Positions 8,964-22,219 of a DNA stretch of 22,219 nt are shown one piece after another. How positions within the stretch are numbered: position 1 is the first letter of the stretch; each line of letters opens with the position of its first letter. The position numbers and the translations under genes are program-made. The notes below the pieces were generated by a model that had not been told where the DNA came from, made no database searches, and saw only the letters and a program-made list of their open reading frames with translations. Location of the stretch: positions 1-22,219 of IMG/VR virus record IMGVR_UViG_3300042455_000873. The stretch is one strand, 5' to 3'. The stretch is from a virus.

Positions 8964-9233
8964 ATGACATTACGCCAGATTGAACGCAAATATATTGAGC
9001 TGCAAGAAGCAATAAGAAACAATGATGGCGTTGATTGTAGCCAAGTCCCAGAGGTCTTTTTCCCAGAGGATGAGCATGACCCAGCAACTCGAAAGTCAAT
9101 GGTGCAGGTAGCAAAGGAAGTCTGCGCTGATTGCTCTGTAAGACTGAGGTGCTTTGACTATGCGTTATCGGCAGGGATGCAAGGCATCTGGGGTGGAACT
9201 ACTGCTGAGGAACGCCAGAAGCTAAGAGCTTAG
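8964..9233 (+). CDS. whiB: WhiB-like iron-sulfur transcription regulator
   Basis: An 89-residue protein with the full Wbl signature: C25, then C54-x2-C57 and C63 to hold a [4Fe-4S] cluster, and GIWGG (74-78), the turn that contacts the primary sigma factor. After it only EERQKLRA remains, so the basic DNA-contact tail of many host Wbl proteins is short or missing. Wbl proteins bind sigma factor region 4 and change promoter choice; some phage members act as dominant-negative regulators of host genes. It is the only plus-strand gene, with its own promoter. Its stop overlaps the stop of the convergent holin gene by four bases. Confidence 0.93.
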   Translation: MTLRQIERKYIELQEAIRNNDGVDCSQVPEVFFPEDEHDPATRKSMVQVAKEVCADCSVRLRCFDYALSAGMQGIWGGTTAEERQKLRA

Positions 9234-9590: not shown

Positions 9591-10349
9591 CTATGGAAGT
9601 CTGCCCCAAGTAACCCAGCCAACAACGCCATCTACCCTGATGCCCTGCTCACGCTGGAACTGCCTAACTCTGGCATCGGTGATTGGGCCAAAGATTCCGT
9701 CAGCCTTGATACCTAGAACGCTCTGAAGGTACTTGACATTCGAGCCTGTTGATCCACGCTTCAAGAATCTGAGTAGTCTTGGCTTTCTGCTGACTGGTGG
9801 TGGGGTTGGAATAACCGGTGCGACAGGTGCGACTGCCTGAGATGCTCTCTTGTTGCACTCGGCAACTATGTAGTCAAGCTGTGACATTACAAATGGCCCT
9901 GGACAAGCGGTGGATGAATACTGCTGATGCCAAGCAATAAAGAACTCGCTCTGTACCTGAGTCTTGATGTTCTTAGCAAAGCCTCGGTTAGCTCTTGGAG
10001 AGATACTTGCATGGAAAATGATGACATCTATCAAGGCTTCAAGGGCGGCAGACGAAATAGGCCAATCGCCACCGACAGATGAGTTGTCAATCTCGAAGGT
10101 AACAGCACTAGGGTCAGGCTGTCCACCTGTTGAGTAAGGTCTGCGCTCAGGGTTTACGATTCCTGTTACTGCACCTGAGTTTGAGATGTGATAGGTAGGG
10201 TGAGAGTTTCTTGAGTTCTTGTTGGCAACATAGTTGAGGCCGTTAGTTCCTGCCACATGGTGAATGACTACTCCGTTGATAGCTTGCCCATTACGAGAGC
10301 CACCAAATCCGTTGTCTTGTATTCCTGCAACCTTTGGATACCAGCTCAT
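9591..10349 (-). CDS. Endolysin: N-acetylmuramoyl-L-alanine amidase with peptidoglycan-binding domain
   Basis: A 252-residue protein. The amidase-2/PGRP domain (about 1-165) shows the zinc ligands H30 or H31 (VVIHHVAG), H141 (IAWHQQYSSTACPG) and C149, and the central HPTYHISNSG. A proline-rich linker (about 173-186) leads to a C-terminal peptidoglycan-binding domain (about 193-252: LKRGSTGSNVKYLQSVLGIK, ADGIFGPIT, VDGVVGWVTWGRL). It cuts the amide bond between muramic acid and the stem peptide. No signal peptide is present, so export would depend on the holin. The ATG shares a base with the XhlA-like stop (TAATG). Confidence 0.93.
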   Translation of the reverse strand: MSWYPKVAGIQDNGFGGSRNGQAINGVVIHHVAGTNGLNYVANKNSRNSHPTYHISNSGAVTGIVNPERRPYSTGGQPDPSAVTFEIDNSSVGGDWPISSAALEALIDVIIFHASISPRANRGFAKNIKTQVQSEFFIAWHQQYSSTACPGPFVMSQLDYIVAECNKRASQAVAPVAPVIPTPPPVSRKPRLLRFLKRGSTGSNVKYLQSVLGIKADGIFGPITDARVRQFQREQGIRVDGVVGWVTWGRLP

Positions 10350-10594
10350 TATTTTCCTATCACTGTTAGTAGTAAACCGATTATTGAAACTATTGCGGCT
10401 GTCAAGCCTGTGTAAGCGACTCGCTCAATCCAAGCAAGTCTGGCAAGGGTGAGTTCTACTTCTCTGATTCTGTCCGGCACATCGTCAAGGTGATCTAGTT
10501 TCTGCAACACCTGGATAAGGATCTGTCCATGCTCAAGTTGCTTCTTATAGATGTCGGCCTGAGTAATCCGAACTGAAGTAGTTTCCTCAGACAT
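10349..10594 (-). CDS. XhlA-like small membrane protein, lysis-associated
   Basis: An 81-residue protein with a polar, coiled-coil N-terminal part (ADIYKKQLEHGQILIQVLQK, then DRIREVELTLARL) and one C-terminal membrane helix (about 60-79, AYTGLTAAIVSIIGLLLTVI). This is the layout of XhlA/hemolysin-type proteins that sit beside endolysins and assist holins. Its start overlaps the end of the preceding gene by one base, and its stop overlaps the endolysin start, so the three are coupled. A role in lysis is inferred from form and place. Confidence 0.65.
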   Translation of the reverse strand: MSEETTSVRITQADIYKKQLEHGQILIQVLQKLDHLDDVPDRIREVELTLARLAWIERVAYTGLTAAIVSIIGLLLTVIGK

Positions 10595-10827
10595 TAGCTT
10601 TTGAGTGCTGCTATTTCAGCAGAGGTAAGTCCTAGCTTGGTGAGCTTGGCAATGGCACTAGCCTCAGCTTTATCTTTAGCTTCTTGTTCGGCAAGGCGTT
10701 CAGCCTCAGATGCCTCGTAAGCCAAGCGATCAACTTCACGCTGGTCTAGTTCCTCTTGAGTAAGGGGGACAGTTATGGACTCTCCTGTTGAGCAGTCCAC
10801 TATTACTTTCATTAGGGTTTCAGTCAT
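10594..10827 (-). CDS. Small acidic protein after the tail fibre genes
   Basis: A 77-residue protein. The N-terminal part (MKVIVDCSTGESITVPLT) is strand-like; the middle is a highly charged helix (about 23-56) rich in E, A and K; and it ends in a small helical hairpin (LTKLGLTSAEIAALKS). Proteins of this build often follow tail fibre genes in phages and may be virion components or fibre chaperones; that is inference. An internal ATG at codon 6 is a possible alternative start. Confidence 0.6.
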   Translation of the reverse strand: MTETLMKVIVDCSTGESITVPLTQEELDQREVDRLAYEASEAERLAEQEAKDKAEASAIAKLTKLGLTSAEIAALKS

Positions 10828-10850
10828 TTTGTTTTCTTTCTTTTCTAATT

Positions 10851-11372
10851 CTAGGCTACTGTGACAATTCCGTCAGAGCCAGATGTTATCTTATAGAGTG
10901 AAATTGTTGTGCCTATTTCAAATTGAGTTCCTGATTCTGGTAAAAAAGTAAGGCTAGTTATAGCTGCGGTATTGCTCCAAAGACCAGCACTTATCATTTG
11001 ACCAGCGGATGTCGCGTTATTTTCAGCGACGCCATCGCTTGAAAAAGATTTATTCCTGCTAGAGGTGTAGTTAGCTATGTAACACAGAGAATTACCAAAT
11101 ACGTTTGATGTCTGAGATGTTGTAGAACCCTCACCACCAAAAATATATGTATCTGTAAACGAGCTTGCAAGTGAGCCATTACCGACTAATCTGCGAGCAG
11201 CTCCATTGGCACTTGAGCCGTTTGGTCTAACCAAAAATGGGTCGTTTACTGTATTTGCTCTGTTTGTTCTTGAACTACCAATTACAACAAGGTCAGTCCC
11301 ATCTTGCGGGATAGAAGTAAAAACTATTGTCGCTGCTGCTACTGTAAGGGTTTTGGTTTCTATAAGTTTCAC
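10851..11372 (-). CDS. Tail receptor-binding-like protein, paralogue 3
   Basis: A 173-residue protein from a GTG that overlaps the previous stop (GTGA). It shares its frame with the two genes before it: an N-terminal KLIETKTLTVAAATIVFTSI (2-21), a middle full of G, S, T and N, and a C-terminal SNTAAITSLTFLP followed by TTISLYKI. It alone extends past the SLY motif, by about ten residues. Beta-rich composition and position at the end of the tail genes suggest a virion tip or fibre protein that meets the host surface. The segment is noticeably AT-rich (20 of 60 G+C in 11041-11100). Confidence 0.6.
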   Translation of the reverse strand: MKLIETKTLTVAAATIVFTSIPQDGTDLVVIGSSRTNRANTVNDPFLVRPNGSSANGAARRLVGNGSLASSFTDTYIFGGEGSTTSQTSNVFGNSLCYIANYTSSRNKSFSSDGVAENNATSAGQMISAGLWSNTAAITSLTFLPESGTQFEIGTTISLYKITSGSDGIVTVA

Positions 11373-11860
11373 GCTATTACTCCATACAGGCTAAAAGTTC
11401 CACCAGTTGCCCAACTACCAGTTGATGGAAAAACTAAAATTGAAGTTATTGCTGATGTGCTTGCCCATCGTTGAAGAATAGCTTCGACACCAGTAGAGGC
11501 AGCGTTGCTTCTCACCAAAACGTTTTTATGTTTATCAGTTGCCGCGTAGTCAATAAAATGAAGTGTTAAAAGAGCAGCTTGGCTTGTAGTCGAAAAAGGC
11601 TGTGATGAGATAACCCCGACTGTTTGATTCGAGCCACCACCAGATGTTGCCGATGAGCCTGTTCCCGACATTCGGACATAGTTATAGATTGCACTTGAGC
11701 TGCCATTTATTGTTAATCGAGCGTCTGCCGTGGTTGTGCCTTGTGACTCAATTACTAAAATTAGATCGCGGTAAGTTGCAGGAATAGAACTAAAAGTTAC
11801 AGAAGCTGCTGAACCCGTTAATGTTCTAGTTGCTAGAGCTGTATAAGTCGGCGTCGGCAT
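11369..11860 (-). CDS. Tail receptor-binding-like protein, paralogue 2
   Basis: A 163-residue protein from ATG 11860. It has the same plan as its neighbours: LATRTLTGSAASVTFSSIPA (9-28) then YRDLILVI, a glycine/serine-rich middle (GTGSSATSGGGSNQT), a NVLVRSNAAST core, and a C-terminal STSAITSILVFPSTGSWATG then GTFSLYGVIA. The aligned ends and the variable centre point to a common beta-sandwich or lectin-like fold with changing loops. Host receptor binding is inferred from position and pattern only. Confidence 0.6.
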   Translation of the reverse strand: MPTPTYTALATRTLTGSAASVTFSSIPATYRDLILVIESQGTTTADARLTINGSSSAIYNYVRMSGTGSSATSGGGSNQTVGVISSQPFSTTSQAALLTLHFIDYAATDKHKNVLVRSNAASTGVEAILQRWASTSAITSILVFPSTGSWATGGTFSLYGVIA

Positions 11861-11863
11861 TGG

Positions 11864-12418
11864 CTATCCCCTTATTCCGTAGAGGCTAAAACGAGAGCCA
11901 ATTCTAAATGAGTCGGCAAAGTTTGACAATTCGATGCTAGTAACCGAAGCTGTATTCATCCACAAGCCAGAGTTTAGACCAATTATTTGTTGTGCTGTTA
12001 TGTGACCACCAGTAAAGGCCCTAATAGTTTTATTTCTAGTGCTTGAATAAGCTTCAACTATATCGACGATGTTAGCCGCAAAAATCGTGGCACTACCTCT
12101 AACCACTAGACCAGCCAAAGCTGATGATTGAGAAGCAGACGCGTAAGGACTGACAGTACTACCATTACCCCAAAGTCTGTGATGAGCGTAGTTATTTCCA
12201 GAGTCACCATTGAAACGCAAACGCACGTTATCCATATCCGCTGTCGCGTTTGTATTTCCTGCTACAAACCTAATTTGTAAATGTTTGTAAATAGCAGCGT
12301 AAGTTCCAAGAGATGAAAAAGTAATAGTGGCTGCTGCTGTGCCTAGTATCTGTGTTTCAATTAGCTCGTAATCTGAACCAACAGCCGATGCCGAAAGAAT
12401 CCCGAATGGAATCAGCAT
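11864..12418 (-). CDS. Tail receptor-binding-like protein, paralogue 1
   Basis: A 184-residue protein from ATG 12418. The repeated plan is YELIETQILGTAAATITFSS (17-36), then YKHLQIRF, a middle with VRLRFNGDSGNNYAHHRLWG and SSTRNKTIRAFTGG, and a C-terminal NTASVTSIELSNFADSFRIG followed by SRFSLYGIRG. It shares with paralogue 3 the words RRLVGNG/HRLWGNG and TSSRNKS/YSSTRNK, so these two are closer to each other than to paralogue 2. A fibre or receptor-binding role is likely from its place after the minor tail genes. Confidence 0.6.
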   Translation of the reverse strand: MLIPFGILSASAVGSDYELIETQILGTAAATITFSSLGTYAAIYKHLQIRFVAGNTNATADMDNVRLRFNGDSGNNYAHHRLWGNGSTVSPYASASQSSALAGLVVRGSATIFAANIVDIVEAYSSTRNKTIRAFTGGHITAQQIIGLNSGLWMNTASVTSIELSNFADSFRIGSRFSLYGIRG

Positions 12419-12820: not shown

Positions 12821-14239
12821 CTATGGGCCTAGTATGTTCTGGTTGAGGATACCCTTGTTATCGCTGTCCAGAATAAACATGTTTCGTTCGTTTCTAAGTC
12901 TAAATTCTATCTCATGGCTGGTGATGGTTATGCGGTGCGAAATACCTGTGATTAGTCCAGCCGTAATCTTTGGATCCCCAATCCTGTTCGGGGTAAAGCT
13001 AACGCTGATGTAATCGTCAATCTCGAGGTCTAGGACTTGAAGGCGTTGCTCGAGGCTTAGGTTGCTGAGGTCAACAGTAATCGAGTCAACCCTTAGAGTC
13101 GGCTCGTAGTAGTAAGTCAAAAGGTCAACTGCTACCTCTAAAGCACCTTGGTCAGTAGAGTTTAGAAGGTTAGTAATCGAGTAGCTTCTAACGCCGTAAA
13201 GTTGCTTTGAGCCTGGAGCTGAGGCAACCTGCAGAGTGGCAGCAGGGTCTTGGGTAGTTCCCTCAACCTCGTTGTAAAGGAACTCTGATCCGTAAGAAAC
13301 ATCTATCTTGGTAAACCGGATACCCGTACCTGCATCTGTGAACTGAACAGGAGTTGGCTCTGGGTTCGTAACTGTCACAGTTAGCAAAGATGGTGCGTTG
13401 CCAGCAGAGGCAGGAAAGGCAGGGGTAATCTCCACCGATGCGCTGTAAGGGCCAGAGTAGTCGGAACCAGCAGCAGTAGCCACAGCGTTGATAGCAGCAA
13501 CTCGATAGTAATACTTTGTTCCTGGTGTCAGACCTGTGTTGGTGTAGGTAAGAGTTGTTGTGCCTGTGTTGGCTACAAGGGTTGAGAAGTTGATGTTGTC
13601 AGTTGAACGCTGAATCCTGTATCCAGTAACAGCCTTGCCACCATTATCTGCTGGTGCTGTCCAAGTAATCGTTGCGCTAGTTCCAGTAGAGCTGGCAGTA
13701 GGAGTGCCTGGTGCGATAGGCAGAGTGTCATAAACAACCTCAAAAACTAGCGAACCATTTGAAGGGGTTACTCCACCACCACTAACAAGTCCATTGTCGG
13801 TAAAGTTGCCACCTGCTGAAGTGGTGTCCATTTTGATTGAAGCACCAAAGGCTGTGTCAACAGAGTAAGTTACCTGAGCGGTGGTTTCTTTTGTAAAACC
13901 AATCCAATAGCTTGTGTTAGCAAAGATAGATCGCGTTAGACCTACACCAACTTGATAAGGGGTTTGGGAGTTAGGCAGCGTAAAGACACTAGAGTAAACT
14001 CCACCCTGTCCTGCGCTGTTCCACATAGCAAAGGCAGTTGTGGCGTTCGAGCTGTTGTAAGCGGTCAACTCTAGGTATAGAGCCGATACTAAACCTGGCT
14101 TGGCAGCAGCTCCAGTCTTACCAGGTGCATCCCTGCCAGAGATGTCGGGCATGGTAATAAGTTGAGCAATGTTGTATGGCGGTCTAAAACCATAGAAAGG
14201 GTCAGCTCTCCTGACAGCACCATTACTGTAACTGGTCAT
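12821..14239 (-). CDS. Minor tail protein: FN3-like domain plus C-terminal half of a tail hub
   Basis: A 472-residue protein in three parts. Residues about 1-170 look like a tail-surface domain (YNSSNATTAFAMWNSAGQGG). About 173-272 is a fibronectin type III-like domain (APGTPTASSTGTSATITWTA, GYRIQRSTDN, LTPGTKYYYRVAAINA). About 298-472 carries features of the C-terminal half of actinophage hub proteins: IRFTKIDVSYGSEFLYNEVE, LYGVRSYSITNLL, LTYYYEPTLRVDSITVDLSN and ISVSFTPNRIGDPK. The ATG directly follows two in-frame TAG codons that end the previous gene, so the two genes are in one frame and probably coupled by reinitiation. Confidence 0.75.
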   Translation of the reverse strand: MTSYSNGAVRRADPFYGFRPPYNIAQLITMPDISGRDAPGKTGAAAKPGLVSALYLELTAYNSSNATTAFAMWNSAGQGGVYSSVFTLPNSQTPYQVGVGLTRSIFANTSYWIGFTKETTAQVTYSVDTAFGASIKMDTTSAGGNFTDNGLVSGGGVTPSNGSLVFEVVYDTLPIAPGTPTASSTGTSATITWTAPADNGGKAVTGYRIQRSTDNINFSTLVANTGTTTLTYTNTGLTPGTKYYYRVAAINAVATAAGSDYSGPYSASVEITPAFPASAGNAPSLLTVTVTNPEPTPVQFTDAGTGIRFTKIDVSYGSEFLYNEVEGTTQDPAATLQVASAPGSKQLYGVRSYSITNLLNSTDQGALEVAVDLLTYYYEPTLRVDSITVDLSNLSLEQRLQVLDLEIDDYISVSFTPNRIGDPKITAGLITGISHRITITSHEIEFRLRNERNMFILDSDNKGILNQNILGP

Positions 14240-18326: not shown

Positions 18327-18734
18327 CTAATCGGCATACACTTCAACAGCGAATTCCGCTGCTAAGTATGTGCCATCATTCATCTGGATGGGTGTGTAAT
18401 TTCTCATTTCAGACACTCGGCAATCATAGGCATTACCACCAAGTGTCTTATCTGATTCTACTGCGTTCTTGATACTTGAGGTGCCTGTGCTTGAGCAGTA
18501 AGCGTCTAGTGTCCGTTGTGCAGTTCTTTCATCAGCCCTACCGACAATGACCACCACAGCAAAGCCGTACTGAGTCATTCCCCTTGCGAACGCCTGGTTG
18601 TAGTCAATCGTTGTTGGTCTGACTAGGGCAATCGGTGGGTTGGGATTGTCTGGCATTTCAGGGCTAGTTCTAAGCCCAGTTATTGTGCCAAGGTTGGTGG
18701 CGATAGCGGTTCTTAGAGCTGTGATGCTTGCCAC
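18327..18734 (-). CDS. Putative tail terminator / tail completion protein
   Basis: A 135-residue protein between the connector and the tail tube genes, where the tail terminator is usually found. It has an N-terminal helix (ITALRTAIATNLGTITGLRT), strand-rich middle (YGFAVVVIVGRADERTAQRT) and an end YLAAEFAVEVYAD, a common pattern for tail completion proteins that cap the tail. Assignment relies on size, pattern and place. The ATG at 18734 shares a base with the upstream stop. Confidence 0.6.
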   Translation of the reverse strand: MASITALRTAIATNLGTITGLRTSPEMPDNPNPPIALVRPTTIDYNQAFARGMTQYGFAVVVIVGRADERTAQRTLDAYCSSTGTSSIKNAVESDKTLGGNAYDCRVSEMRNYTPIQMNDGTYLAAEFAVEVYAD

Positions 18735-19333
18735 TATGCAAACCTAATTCTGCGGTATGGGCCAACGAGCTGTGCGACATCTGGATCGAGTTGGTTGCTG
18801 ACTCGCATGATTCCGATGTCAGAGATACCTGCAACACCAAGAGGGCTGTCTAGTCGCTTGTAGATTCGGCTGGACTGAATGACACAAGCCTGAGTTACAG
18901 CGATTGGGACTGCTGACCATCCCCAAGTTCCTGTGACCTCAACAGTTGCTTCACCTTCCCATTGGGTAAACAAGTAATCACCAACAGCTCTGATGTGAGT
19001 GTATGAGGTAGGCAATCCGTCAACTCTGCCGTTTAGGGGTTCGAGCTGGTAATCGTTAGCTGTCCAAACTTGGTCAAAGCTACCATCATCATCCGACTTG
19101 GTTCTTAGCTGAGTGAGCGTGATTAGATCGTCAATCTCAACTTGTAGGTAATCCATTGGGGTAAAGATTCTGGTAGCTGTGCCAGTAGCAGAGAAGCTGC
19201 GGTTGGTGTATCCGTCAATAGCTCTCGAGCCTGACTCAATAGCCATCTCTAGCAGGGTGTCATCTACTGTGTCTGTGATTCTTAGTGCTGCCTTGACTTG
19301 AGCAAGTGAGGCATAGCCTTGGGTGATTGCCAT
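18734..19333 (-). CDS. Head-tail connector (gp6/adaptor-like)
   Basis: Start placed at ATG 19333, with TAGAGAAC upstream; the longer frame would overlap the GT2 gene. The 199-residue product begins MAITQGYASLAQVKAALRIT and DDTLLEMAIESGSRAIDGYT, the helical opening of gp6/gp15-type connectors with 'L.....L.I....D..L...I..A...I'. Later parts are strand-rich (VTGTWGWSAVP) then helical (AVTQACVIQSSRIYKRLDSP). It forms the ring below the portal that connects head and tail. Confidence 0.8.
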   Translation of the reverse strand: MAITQGYASLAQVKAALRITDTVDDTLLEMAIESGSRAIDGYTNRSFSATGTATRIFTPMDYLQVEIDDLITLTQLRTKSDDDGSFDQVWTANDYQLEPLNGRVDGLPTSYTHIRAVGDYLFTQWEGEATVEVTGTWGWSAVPIAVTQACVIQSSRIYKRLDSPLGVAGISDIGIMRVSNQLDPDVAQLVGPYRRIRFA

Positions 19334-19374
19334 AATGTTCTCTATTCTATCTCTTGAAAAGAATACGCTCTGGG

Positions 19375-20025
19375 TTACTCCCAGCCGTTCTTGCGCCTTA
19401 TTTCTAGTGACCAATCACCAGCGGTGTAGTCGTTACTGTCCATCTTAGACTGATAGTGTTTCTCGTTTCTGGAATAGGTCATAGCGTTCTTGTCCATGTA
19501 ACCAGCCTTGATAGTCGAGCTGTTGTCATGTGTGACCTCGATGTCTAAGAGCCTAATGTTGACACCGACAAACTCAGCCCTGCGAGCATAGTCATTGTCC
19601 TCAAAGTAGGCAGGGAATAGTGACTCATCAAACAGCCCGATGTCGTTGACTGCCTCATCTCCCAAAGCAAAGGCTTGCCAGTGAGGTGCTGAGCCTGTCA
19701 GGGTTATCTCATCCCTGCGAGCCTGTGAGAGTTGCTCTAAAGCACCAGGCTTGAACTCTACATCGTTAGACACTACAAACCAGCGGTGAGCATAAGGGAA
19801 AGACTTGATGCCTAAGTTCCATGATCCTGATACGCCGAGATTAGCTGGCATCGGTAAGTGTGTGACCTTCTTAAAGTTATCGCTTAGGTCAAGGATTAGC
19901 TTTGGCTGGTGGCTTGCACCATTGTCAATTATGAGCAGGTGTTCGACTGGGACATCTACGCTGTCAAGCATCCTTTGGAGCAGGTCATACCGATTCAGCA
20001 CCGGCACAATCAGGTTCTCAAGCAT
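19375..20025 (-). CDS. Glycosyltransferase family 2 (GT-A fold)
   Basis: Start chosen at ATG 20025, which overlaps the methyltransferase stop by eight bases and follows GAAAAGAAAG; the open frame goes on to 20106 but only inside the upstream gene. The 216-residue product begins with LIVPVLNRYDLLQRMLDS and HLLIIDNGA, the GT2 nucleotide-binding start, then NLGVSGSWNLG (62-72). SNDVEF (86-91) stands at the usual metal-binding DxD position, FPAYFEDNDYARRA (137-150) holds the likely catalytic Asp/Glu, and VTHDNSST (164-171) the C-terminal His. It would transfer a sugar, probably to a virion protein or glycan; the acceptor is unknown. Confidence 0.88.
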   Translation of the reverse strand: MLENLIVPVLNRYDLLQRMLDSVDVPVEHLLIIDNGASHQPKLILDLSDNFKKVTHLPMPANLGVSGSWNLGIKSFPYAHRWFVVSNDVEFKPGALEQLSQARRDEITLTGSAPHWQAFALGDEAVNDIGLFDESLFPAYFEDNDYARRAEFVGVNIRLLDIEVTHDNSSTIKAGYMDKNAMTYSRNEKHYQSKMDSNDYTAGDWSLEIRRKNGWE

Positions 20026-20551
20026 CAGCTTTCTTTTCACCATAGAAGTAAAGGTCACAAGAATCAGCGTTGTAGTCAAAGTAGTAGCTGTCAAACATCT
20101 CATCAAGATTGAACTCAGCTCTAAAGTCCTGCTCAGTTAGGTTTCGGTAGTAGTCCCAGCCGAGTGTCAGCGGTGATGAGCCAGGGTCTGACTTTGTAGT
20201 GCCATGCTCAGCTCTGCCCTCTGAGGCACAGGTCATCATCACATACTTCTTGCTCATACGCCACATATTGCGAAAGGTAGCAACCCACTCAGGGTTATGC
20301 TCAAAGCACTCAGCAGATACAGCGACATCAAAGCTGTTGTCGGGGTAGTCAAGGTTCTCACCATTACAGACAACATCTACATCTCTGCCCTCGGCTACAT
20401 CAGCACCAATGTATCTAGTCGAGTCAAAGAAATCTCGGACTGTGCCGTTGATGTTTAGACTGCCAACCTCTAGGACTTCAACACCTGTAAAGGCTTCGGG
20501 TTTTTTATTCTTGACACCTTGAAAGAAATCCCTTTGCTGACTGTGTGCCAT
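20018..20551 (-). CDS. Class I SAM-dependent methyltransferase
   Basis: A 177-residue protein starting right after the GT4 stop (TAA then ATG). The Rossmann-type SAM fold is visible: motif I VEVLEVGSLNINGT (24-37), acidic residue in YIGADVAEG (47-55), NGENLDYPDNSFDVAVSAEC (63-82) and FEHNPEWVATFRNMWRMSK (83-101). The type 11 methyltransferase pattern suits a small molecule or sugar as substrate more than DNA, since no target-recognition domain is present. Placed between two glycosyltransferases, it most likely methylates the added sugar; this is inference. Confidence 0.85.
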   Translation of the reverse strand: MAHSQQRDFFQGVKNKKPEAFTGVEVLEVGSLNINGTVRDFFDSTRYIGADVAEGRDVDVVCNGENLDYPDNSFDVAVSAECFEHNPEWVATFRNMWRMSKKYVMMTCASEGRAEHGTTKSDPGSSPLTLGWDYYRNLTEQDFRAEFNLDEMFDSYYFDYNADSCDLYFYGEKKADA

Positions 20552-21742
20552 TTACTTGAGCAACTTCCTCAGTATCGGCATCCAGTTATTCTCCCAAACC
20601 TTTTCAACATCAAACTTGCTGGCAAAGTCTATGGCTACCTGTGATGGGCCACGCTCGGCCTTGTACGCTTCCTCAAGAGCATTGACCAAGCTAGAGATGC
20701 TCGGTGTCATCCACCATGCGTCTTGCCCTGCATCCCAAGTTAGCTGACCATCTGTAAGCCATGAGTCCTCGCTAATTAGGTCAGGGGTTGCTGCCCAGTT
20801 AGAGCCAATGACTCTAGTGCCACAAGCCTGAGCTTCAAGACTAGGAACTCCAAAGCCCTCACCCAAGCTAGGTGCTAGTAAAACATCCATGCGTGAGTAG
20901 AGTGCGGCTAGGTCTTTTTGAGCTAGTCCAAAGCGGTAGTCATTCGGGTTAGGAAAGATTACCTGATCCTTTCTAATTCCTGTTGAGTTGAGGATGTTTA
21001 GCAAGTTCCAACCACCAGCTTGACCTACTGCATCTGTGTGTAGATACAGCACAGCGTCAGGGTGAGCCTTAGCAAACAAGCTGAAAGCAAGGATGAGTTC
21101 CCCATAGGCTTTGCGGTGAACTAGCCCTGATGCCTTGTTAGCGGCAACAACTCCGACAACAAAATTATCTGGCTCTAGTCCCATGTAGGCGTTTATCTCA
21201 TGTCTGCCTATCTTGCTGGTTGGTTTGTAAACCTTAGTGTCTATTGCGTGAGGTGCGTACTCACAGTCAATACCCTTTTCAGTTAGCTGTCTGACTCCAT
21301 GAGGTGACATAGCGATTGGGGTTACATTGTCTTTGCGTAGGAACTTCTCTACCTTTGGGGGAAGTGTTACATGGTCTAGCGGTGTCCAAGCACCGATTGG
21401 GAAGTCATCGTATCCGTTAGCAAGCATCACCCAAACATCGTAAAGGCTGATAAACAGATTGGGTTTATCTTTTCCGGCAATAAAGGATTTGTGATCTACT
21501 GGTGCAGAGTCATTTGAGTAGAGGTCTATTCCTCTGGGGTAATGTGGGACATCGCCAAAAGGTGTTTTGATTGTGCTTGGGATTCCCTCTAGTCCGTAAT
21601 TGGACAACATAGCAACATCAAGACCTGAACGCTTCAATCGGTCAACAAGCATTGTGGCCTGTTGTCCGTATCCGGTTGGTGCGTTGTAGCTATTAGACCA
21701 GACGCTTACTGCGCCGTTTAGTTTCTCTTTATTCGTAGGCAT
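20552..21742 (-). CDS. Glycosyltransferase family 4 (GT-B fold)
   Basis: A 396-residue protein. The N-terminal domain has the acceptor-side glycine turn SYNAPTGYGQQATML (18-32). The C-terminal domain has ANKASGLVHRKAYGELILAF (201-220), YLHTDAVGQAGG, VIFPNPNDYRFGL, and the donor-site signature LGEGFGVPSLEAQACGTRVI (293-312) with the E-x7-E pair E295 and E303. It moves a sugar from a nucleotide donor with retention. It is the first gene of the cassette behind a likely leaderless promoter (TATTAT six bases before the ATG). Acceptor unknown; capsid or tail glycosylation is plausible from its location. Confidence 0.9.
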   Translation of the reverse strand: MPTNKEKLNGAVSVWSNSYNAPTGYGQQATMLVDRLKRSGLDVAMLSNYGLEGIPSTIKTPFGDVPHYPRGIDLYSNDSAPVDHKSFIAGKDKPNLFISLYDVWVMLANGYDDFPIGAWTPLDHVTLPPKVEKFLRKDNVTPIAMSPHGVRQLTEKGIDCEYAPHAIDTKVYKPTSKIGRHEINAYMGLEPDNFVVGVVAANKASGLVHRKAYGELILAFSLFAKAHPDAVLYLHTDAVGQAGGWNLLNILNSTGIRKDQVIFPNPNDYRFGLAQKDLAALYSRMDVLLAPSLGEGFGVPSLEAQACGTRVIGSNWAATPDLISEDSWLTDGQLTWDAGQDAWWMTPSISSLVNALEEAYKAERGPSQVAIDFASKFDVEKVWENNWMPILRKLLK

Positions 21743-21748
21743 ACAAAG

Positions 21749-21757
21749 ATAATAGCA
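21749..21757 (-). promoter_or_regulatory. Promoter of the glycosylation cassette (extended -10, leaderless)
   Basis: The minus strand reads TGCTATTAT, ending six bases before the GT4 ATG, so transcription would start at or next to the start codon. No ribosome site precedes the ATG. No convincing -35 is seen, which fits an extended -10. The same word, TGCTATTCT, precedes the left early operon. Confidence 0.5.
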
Positions 21758-21766
21758 AGAAAAGCA

Positions 21767-21795
21767 GGGAACACAGTCCTACGCTCTGTGTCCCC
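21767..21795 (-). terminator. Hairpin upstream of the GT4 promoter
   Basis: GGGGACACAG (21795-21786) pairs with CTGTGTTCCC (21776-21767) over ten bases including one G-U, with a nine-base loop, then TGCTTTTCTTGCTATTAT. The T-rich tail makes it terminator-like for capsid read-through. It also covers the -20 to -35 zone of the GT4 promoter, so it could be an operator. Confidence 0.45.
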
Positions 21796-21836
21796 CGCCC
21801 TACAAGTTTACTTGTTGCCGATTATTCAGGATAAGA

Positions 21837-21871
21837 GGAAACCCCCCAAAGCCTAAGCTCTGAGGGGTTCC
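21837..21871 (-). terminator. Terminator-like hairpin after the capsid gene
   Basis: 26 bases after the capsid stop the minus strand has GGAACCCC (21871-21864) pairing with GGGG and TTCC (one or more unpaired bases in the second arm, 21847-21837), and an inner stem AGAGC/GCTTT around the loop TTAG. A GTTTCCTCTT tail follows, less pure than a classic U run. It would reduce capsid transcription into the glycosylation genes. Confidence 0.6.
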
Positions 21872-21897
21872 TTGGATTTCCAGTTGAAAACAAGCTA

Positions 21898-22219
21898 TTA
21901 GCTTGCGCCCCCCTTGAAATATCCTATGTGTGATGCGTGAGTTAGTCCACCATCAAGACGGATTAGGCCTCGGTAGGTAACTGTGTCTGTGCTAAACGCA
22001 AAATCTGCGCTCTGATCGACTCGGATTCCACCGGCGACTCTCACAACAAATGATGGGAGATGTCCAAAGAGCACGCTCTTGGTTCCGGTGCCCACGGATG
22101 CCACGGACGGATTTTCATATACTGGGTAGCCAAGCAAGGTTGCTGGCTGACCTGGTACTGCTGAGTTAGTCCAGATGTAGTTTCCTGCACCATCCTTTAG
22201 CTTGCGAGCTGCTGCGATA
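21898..22219 (-). CDS. Major capsid protein, HK97 fold (C-terminal part only)
   Basis: The frame is open through the right edge; 106 residues are visible from IAAARKLKDGAGNYIWTNSA to SHIGYFKGGAS. The segment PATLLGYPVYENPSVASVGT followed by VLFGHLPSFVVRVAGGIRVD and YRGLIRLDGG is the C-terminal P-domain/A-domain pattern of HK97-type capsid proteins (GYPV, then 'G......Y.V.. GI.V', then 'R...R.DG'). The N-terminus and any scaffold or protease lie outside the window. Confidence 0.9.
   Translation of the reverse strand, partial: IAAARKLKDGAGNYIWTNSAVPGQPATLLGYPVYENPSVASVGTGTKSVLFGHLPSFVVRVAGGIRVDQSADFAFSTDTVTYRGLIRLDGGLTHASHIGYFKGGAS

Follow-up and report, generated by a model that had tools for sequence, protein, structure and literature searches.

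A glycosyltransferase-methyltransferase cassette bounded by predicted promoters next to the capsid gene in a lineage of aquatic actinobacterial viruses: a candidate virion glycosylation locus

Organization of the cassette and its enzymes

The window, i.e. the whole stretch of DNA analysed here, comprises 22,219 nucleotides (1-22,219) of the viral record IMGVR_UViG_3300042455_000873 in IMG/VR. In order of transcription, its minus strand carries the capsid C-terminus, a GT4 glycosyltransferase, a methyltransferase (MT), a GT2 glycosyltransferase, a head-tail connector, a tail terminator, the major tail protein and further tail genes. The HK97-type major capsid protein is represented by its C-terminal part (21898..22219, minus strand; Pfam PF05065, Phage_capsid, E 2.8e-19; phrog_10, 2.1e-16), its gene running past the window end. 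The connector (18734..19333, minus strand) is gp6-like (PF05135, Phage_connect_1, E 1.5e-6; phrog_442, E 1.2e-20). Between these two genes lie intact GT4, class I MT and GT2 genes (19375-21742, minus strand). Pfam matches of all three products exceed the curated cut-offs and, together with PHROG assignments, support the glycosylation cassette recognized by an earlier sequence-only reading.

The GT4 enzyme (20552..21742, minus strand) consists of 396 aa and belongs to the GT-B family (Glyco_trans_1_4, 6.5e-11; phrog_2170, E 2.8e-39). Both glutamates of its EX7E motif (E295, E303) fall in columns conserved among relatives. The best solved relative of the GT4 profile is B736L of chlorovirus NY-2A (3oy2, E 9.5e-19), which binds GDP-mannose best and is a candidate for a role in viral glycan synthesis. 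The stop codon of the GT4 gene and the start codon of the MT gene abut (TAAATG). At the other end of the MT gene, the family-consistent GT2 start is ATG at 20025, which gives an 8-nt overlap with the MT stop; GTG at 20040 is possible as well. A listed GT2 form of 243 aa starting from TTG was rejected as too long for the family. The abutting or overlapping arrangement described in the sequence-only reading is thus accurate.

GT2 (19375..20025, minus strand) has a GT-A fold (Glycos_transf_2, PF00535, 2.7e-6; phrog_29879, E 2.9e-51). Its model (pLDDT 93.9) matches GT-A structures, and acidic residues D93, E139 and D148 are conserved. MT (20018..20551, minus strand) is a class I SAM-dependent methyltransferase of 177 aa (Methyltransf_11, PF08241, 1.7e-7; phrog_32762, E 5e-82). 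A search of PDB sequence profiles with MT gave no match, and its AlphaFold2 model (pLDDT 88.5) retrieved with Foldseek many class I methyltransferases, which give no clue to the substrate. Among viral structures (BFVD), the top MT matches are fusions with glycosyltransferases, the best being 54% identical. Homologues of MT and GT2 are fused in a single ORF of 441-465 aa in eight phage contigs. Cellular MT relatives were found in 80 bacterial loci, either inside larger proteins or, in many cases, with genes for RmlA/B/C/D and ABC polysaccharide exporters as neighbours; these were named from the sequences of recurrent clusters, without family search. MT therefore combines a class I SAM fold with glycan gene context, two features expected of a sugar O-methyltransferase. 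Because of the MT-GT2 fusions and of cellular relatives in rhamnose, O-antigen and polysaccharide loci, it is likely that MT, as earlier supposed, methylates a sugar of a glycan; this predicted substrate is perhaps a deoxyhexose.

The nearest named phage is phiPsal1 of Pontimonas, and a WhiB-family gene is located at 9036-9224 (within 8964-9233) of the plus strand, opposite to its neighbours; WhiB also occurs in five related records. On these two grounds the virus is assigned to actinophages, as was previously suggested. It is a lake-type actinobacterial virus of a lineage common in freshwater and coastal waters. Beside the tail genes, three ORFs in tandem, alike in pattern and length (173, 163 and 184 aa; 10851-12418, minus strand), look like diverged paralogues and are perhaps tail or receptor-binding decorations. 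The tail-region protein encoded at 12821-14239 (minus strand) contains a stretch that resembles fibronectin type III when its translation is inspected by eye. An Rfam search of the window gave no match.

Predicted transcription signals at the cassette boundaries

The gap between the capsid and GT4 genes contains two potential hairpins. The first one (21836..21872, minus strand; 16 pairs) follows the 3' end of the capsid gene and is terminator-like; the surrounding 101-nt stretch folds with -36.7 kcal/mol (z -4.1). The second (21763..21799, minus strand; 14 pairs, -24.1 kcal/mol, z -3.6) is followed by a T-rich run and lies just upstream of a putative promoter. This is an extended -10 element, TGC-TATTAT (TGCTATTAT; 21749..21757, minus strand), recognized by motif conservation and located 6 nt 5' of the GT4 ATG. 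Such a leaderless position would put the transcription start at or beside the ATG.

These signals recur in relatives. The TGnTAnnnT motif is present at a distance of up to 60 nt from the GT4 start in 21/35 non-redundant relatives (shuffled mean 1.75, maximum 7), and TAnnnT ending 4-8 nt 5' of the start in 23/35 (shuffled 2.5, maximum 7). In relatives with the -10 farther off (19-27 nt), a stretch resembling a ribosome-binding site comes after it. None of the 27 other listed window genes carries an extended -10. The gap folds with z < -2 in all 31 testable relatives. Both the leaderless promoter and the terminator-like hairpin after the capsid gene, each claimed in the sequence-only reading, are thereby borne out as predictions. 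A consensus scan of the capsid-GT4 gap detected no sigma-70 promoter and no terminator, since the scanner accepts a promoter only if a -35 hexamer is present, and a terminator only if its stem is short, unbroken and accompanied by a T run.

At the distal end, a -10-like TAGAAT (19344..19349, minus strand) lies 10 nt 5' of the connector start and represents a separate putative promoter for connector and tail genes. The motif TAn[AG][AC]T (TAGAAT/TAGACT) precedes the connector by 8-24 nt at 25 of 38 junctions (shuffled 3.7, maximum 11). The connector having its own conserved -10, the cassette appears to be a separate transcription unit. It is right to call it self-contained, with its own predicted promoter and boundary signals, and timing of its expression separate from that of the capsid is possible.

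The capsid-connector site across the lineage

Related loci were retrieved with four independent queries, two of which (capsid and connector) are blind to the cassette. The interval from capsid end to connector start is spanned in 170 loci, corresponding to 108 distinct blocks; as relatives were selected by similarity, block counts do not stand for frequencies in nature. GT4 is present in 108/108 blocks, including phiPsal1, GT2 in 87 and MT in 37. Loci seemingly devoid of GT4 stop at a contig edge. MT occupies four placements: co-directional between GT4 and GT2 (7 blocks), inverted at that place (13, including phiPsal1), after GT2 (16) and inverted after GT2 (1). Other cargo comprises a cytidylyltransferase-like gene, other GT2s, GT17 (7 blocks), a second methyltransferase type, an MptE-like protein and HNH endonucleases. 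The cytidylyltransferase-like gene follows GT2 in 20 blocks (e.g. L091, L146, L186), which suggests a CDP-activated substituent of glycerol or ribitol type in some glycotypes.

An empty capsid-connector site was sought in the 108 distinct blocks and none was found, so that the comparison of related genomes for presence or absence yielded no member of the lineage with an unfilled gap. The previous description of the cassette as lodged between head genes is therefore misleading within this lineage, where the gap is filled in every block and the cassette does not represent an isolated insertion. The accompanying statement that head genes are normally contiguous at this point holds for distant capsid relatives, as Streptomyces TG1, Labrenzia V1 and Rhizobium TM3_3_14B have at most small genes in the capsid-connector gap, but not for the lineage itself. 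The cyanophage Mae-JY09 of Microcystis (L003) encodes a 34% identical GT4 at 9787-10971, one ORF after its capsid gene; capsid-side arrangement of GT4 may therefore extend beyond actinophages.

Gene-by-gene exchange behind a constant GT4

Comparison of closely related loci reveals replacement of single genes. Locus L087 is 94% identical to the window up to 20554 and 96% again from 20023, and in place of the MT between these points it has another glycosyltransferase. Both breakpoints are shared by L091, L092, L088 and L111, which diverge a further time at 19379/19371, with additional genes located after GT2. Swaps map precisely to 20552-20559 and 20019-20025, and the sequences on either side are 78-96% identical. 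Cargo swapped behind GT4 includes MT, several glycosyltransferases, GT17 and the cytidylyltransferase, while capsid genes remain >90% identical.

Further breaks were observed at 21816/21810 in L007 and L088, at the site of an HNH gene. HNH endonuclease genes are situated exactly at cassette junctions in L007, L088, L092, L096, L100, L102, L116 and L177. They possibly drive the exchange of cassette genes.

Where the capsid C-terminus matches that of the window with an identity of 91% or more (51 blocks), GT2 identity ranges from 37% to 100% (median 39%). Correlation of distances with those of the capsid over all pairs (Spearman) is 0.78 for GT4 and 0.44 for GT2, and capsid sequence does not track the type of GT2 or MT. 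As GT4 follows the capsid more than GT2 does, it can be regarded as the constant partner and the remaining genes as exchangeable tailoring genes. GT4-capsid co-variation is only weakly specific, since GT4 is co-inherited with the connector also (0.69). Through gene-by-gene exchange, near-identical coats could wear different sugars.

Possible function of the cassette

We consider it probable, with considerable room for doubt, that the cassette, expressed from its own promoter, glycosylates a structural protein of the virion. This proposal is based on its position within the structural module, between capsid and connector in 108/108 blocks, on GT4-capsid co-variation and on the precedent of mycobacteriophages Corndog and Che8 (see below). 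GT4 as the constant enzyme would start the glycan or build its core, the most likely acceptor among structural proteins being the major capsid protein; GT2 would extend the glycan and MT would cap a sugar with an O-methyl group. A hydropathy scan found no transmembrane-like segment in the three window enzymes or in relatives of GT4 and MT, and one in 2 of 43 GT2 relatives. The enzymes are accordingly predicted to be soluble and might modify capsid subunits, or heads after their assembly, in the cytoplasm. The hairpin is expected to stop read-through from the capsid gene, the leaderless promoter to set the level of the cassette, and another promoter to restart connector and tail genes. As the genes behind GT4 are discrete and exchangeable, phages could swap the enzymes they encode, and capsids that are nearly identical would come to differ in glycotype. 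The selective benefit might be shielding or adsorption.

More tentatively, and with somewhat less confidence than we place in a virion target, we propose a lineage-wide glycotype locus fixed beside the capsid gene, promoter-bounded and composed of one constant glycosyltransferase and exchangeable tailoring enzymes. Capsids that are nearly the same would thereby carry glycans that differ and are often methylated, in surroundings devoid of antibodies.

Two candidate lines of support for a capsid link were rejected. MT relatives in other phages lie far from the capsid gene, so their context was set aside. Capsid C-terminal Ser/Thr as glycosite signature is not general: capsid C-termini vary, and some lack Ser/Thr and end with HLLQP. 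A C-terminal O-glycan of Che8 type is therefore not general either. C-terminal ends of the tail tube nearly always keep Thr, e.g. TRATA and RGTAPAA (sequences only).

The main rival is modification of the host surface, by which a cell-wall polysaccharide (polyrhamnose or similar) would be altered late in infection and re-adsorption of progeny to debris, or superinfection by other phages, blocked. Cellular MT relatives indeed occur among rhamnose and exporter genes of surface-polysaccharide loci, the wall oligosaccharides of Pontimonas are reportedly based on polyrhamnose (PMC6106888), and such a role was proposed for glycosyltransferases of Planktophila phages by their authors (PMC10202952). 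Selection of serotype kind would also be consistent with the pattern of swapped alleles. The cassette, however, contains neither a membrane flippase nor a bactoprenol transferase, and GT4 and MT lack membrane-like helices. A surface modifier would not need to occupy the same capsid-connector site throughout the lineage, nor is it expected that its GT4 would follow the capsid. Taken together, we regard this explanation as rather unlikely, yet as one to be reckoned with.

HNH genes at the junctions in several relatives, and the fact that morons typically have their own promoters and terminators, would also fit passenger cargo (a moron or a homing-endonuclease hotspot) without dedicated infection function. 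Such cargo is hardly compatible with a GT4 never lost in 108 blocks and with 49 columns of MT invariant across 37 diverse sequences, and we consider it very improbable. Even less credit is given to DNA modification. Glycosyltransferases of T4-type phages glycosylate hydroxymethylated bases, and the genome is thereby shielded from nucleases. A comparable role was suggested for freshwater actinophages (PMC10202952). It would call for a hydroxymethylase-type gene, but PF00303 (thymidylate-synthase/hydroxymethylase) is absent from complete phiPsal1, the window and three relatives, mostly fragments, while a control search was positive in 9 genomes; a search for TET/JBP, run without positive control, gave no match. 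In addition, the location of the cassette in the head module and the resemblance of its products to glycan enzymes make this role highly unlikely. Glycosylation of a virion protein thus remains our preferred reading.

Comparison with known systems

The closest counterpart is found in phiPsal1 (MG835450), whose genes 010-012 occupy the same capsid-neck site (GT4 51%, MT 66%, GT2 49% identical). Like the window, it has a terminator-like hairpin, in this case a textbook terminator, and a -10 (TGTTACCCT) six nt 5' of GT4. Unlike in the window, its MT is inverted, and the starts of GT2 and MT are both preceded, at 6 nt, by a -10-like element of their own. The MT (L002, 8162-8698) is inverted in place, likewise in 12 other distinct blocks. 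MT and GT2 start divergently here, sharing TAGGATA between their -10-like elements; the motif is almost symmetric and represents a putative two-way promoter. The phage was set aside without discussion in its genome paper (PMC6106888), and its cassette was deposited with annotation; phiPsal1 has reportedly been lost.

Glycosylated phage virions have been reported only recently, for mycobacteriophages. Glycans on C-termini of capsid and tail tube are described there, and capsid glycosylation by genes of Che8 and cluster O is reported (PMC12363180). Cluster O phages (Corndog) carry an O-methyltransferase and three glycosyltransferases between portal and protease, inside the head operon; Che8 has a GT2+MT fusion (gp108, GT2 with TylF/Methyltransf_24), a GT2 and a GT25. 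Two or three glycosyltransferases with an O-methyltransferase, and in cluster O the head operon, are shared with the window. The protein families differ (phrog_8858, 1721 and 854 versus phrog_2170, 32762 and 29879), and so do the sites, which are portal-protease or, in Che8, the genome right end outside the structural module. Profile comparison was not significant for Che8 gp108 and gp110 and, for gp109, indicated GT2-family relationship only weakly (probability 19.5%), but hhalign against single sequences is insensitive and is not counted as proof of non-homology.

Synechococcus phage S-CBS4 has a homologous GT4-GT2-MT run near head genes (gp014-016; 24%, 31% and 56%). It is a cyanophage, and the run follows the portal and precedes a putative head protein instead of lying between capsid and connector. 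In chloroviruses, A064R joins two glycosyltransferases and a methyltransferase for the capsid glycan (PMC9614988), and B736L/A546L include the closest solved GT4 relative, B736L. In contrast to the window enzymes, these belong to a eukaryotic virus with an N-glycan.

Phage virion glycosylation as an idea, like the individual parts, is already known. New are the constant-plus-exchangeable organization, the fixed site across a widespread lineage, the promoter boundaries and protein families unlike the mycobacteriophage set. A literature search of partial coverage retrieved no description of a constant-plus-exchangeable capsid-side cassette. A comparable but unrelated enzyme set is fixed beside the capsid gene in a common freshwater and coastal actinophage lineage. 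If virion decoration is true, the phenomenon extends to abundant aquatic phages and raises the question what selects glycan diversity where antibodies are absent; the lineage would also serve as a natural library from which soluble sugar transferases, together with a compact sugar methyltransferase, could be drawn.

The seroconversion genes gtrABC of temperate phages consist of a constant part and variable transferases, and the cassette resembles them in this respect. Unlike the cassette, which has neither according to the hydropathy scan, they require a membrane flippase (GtrA) and a bactoprenol/membrane transferase (GtrB). Should the glycotype-locus reading be true, the cassette would represent a prokaryotic-virus counterpart of serotype variation, borne on the virion.
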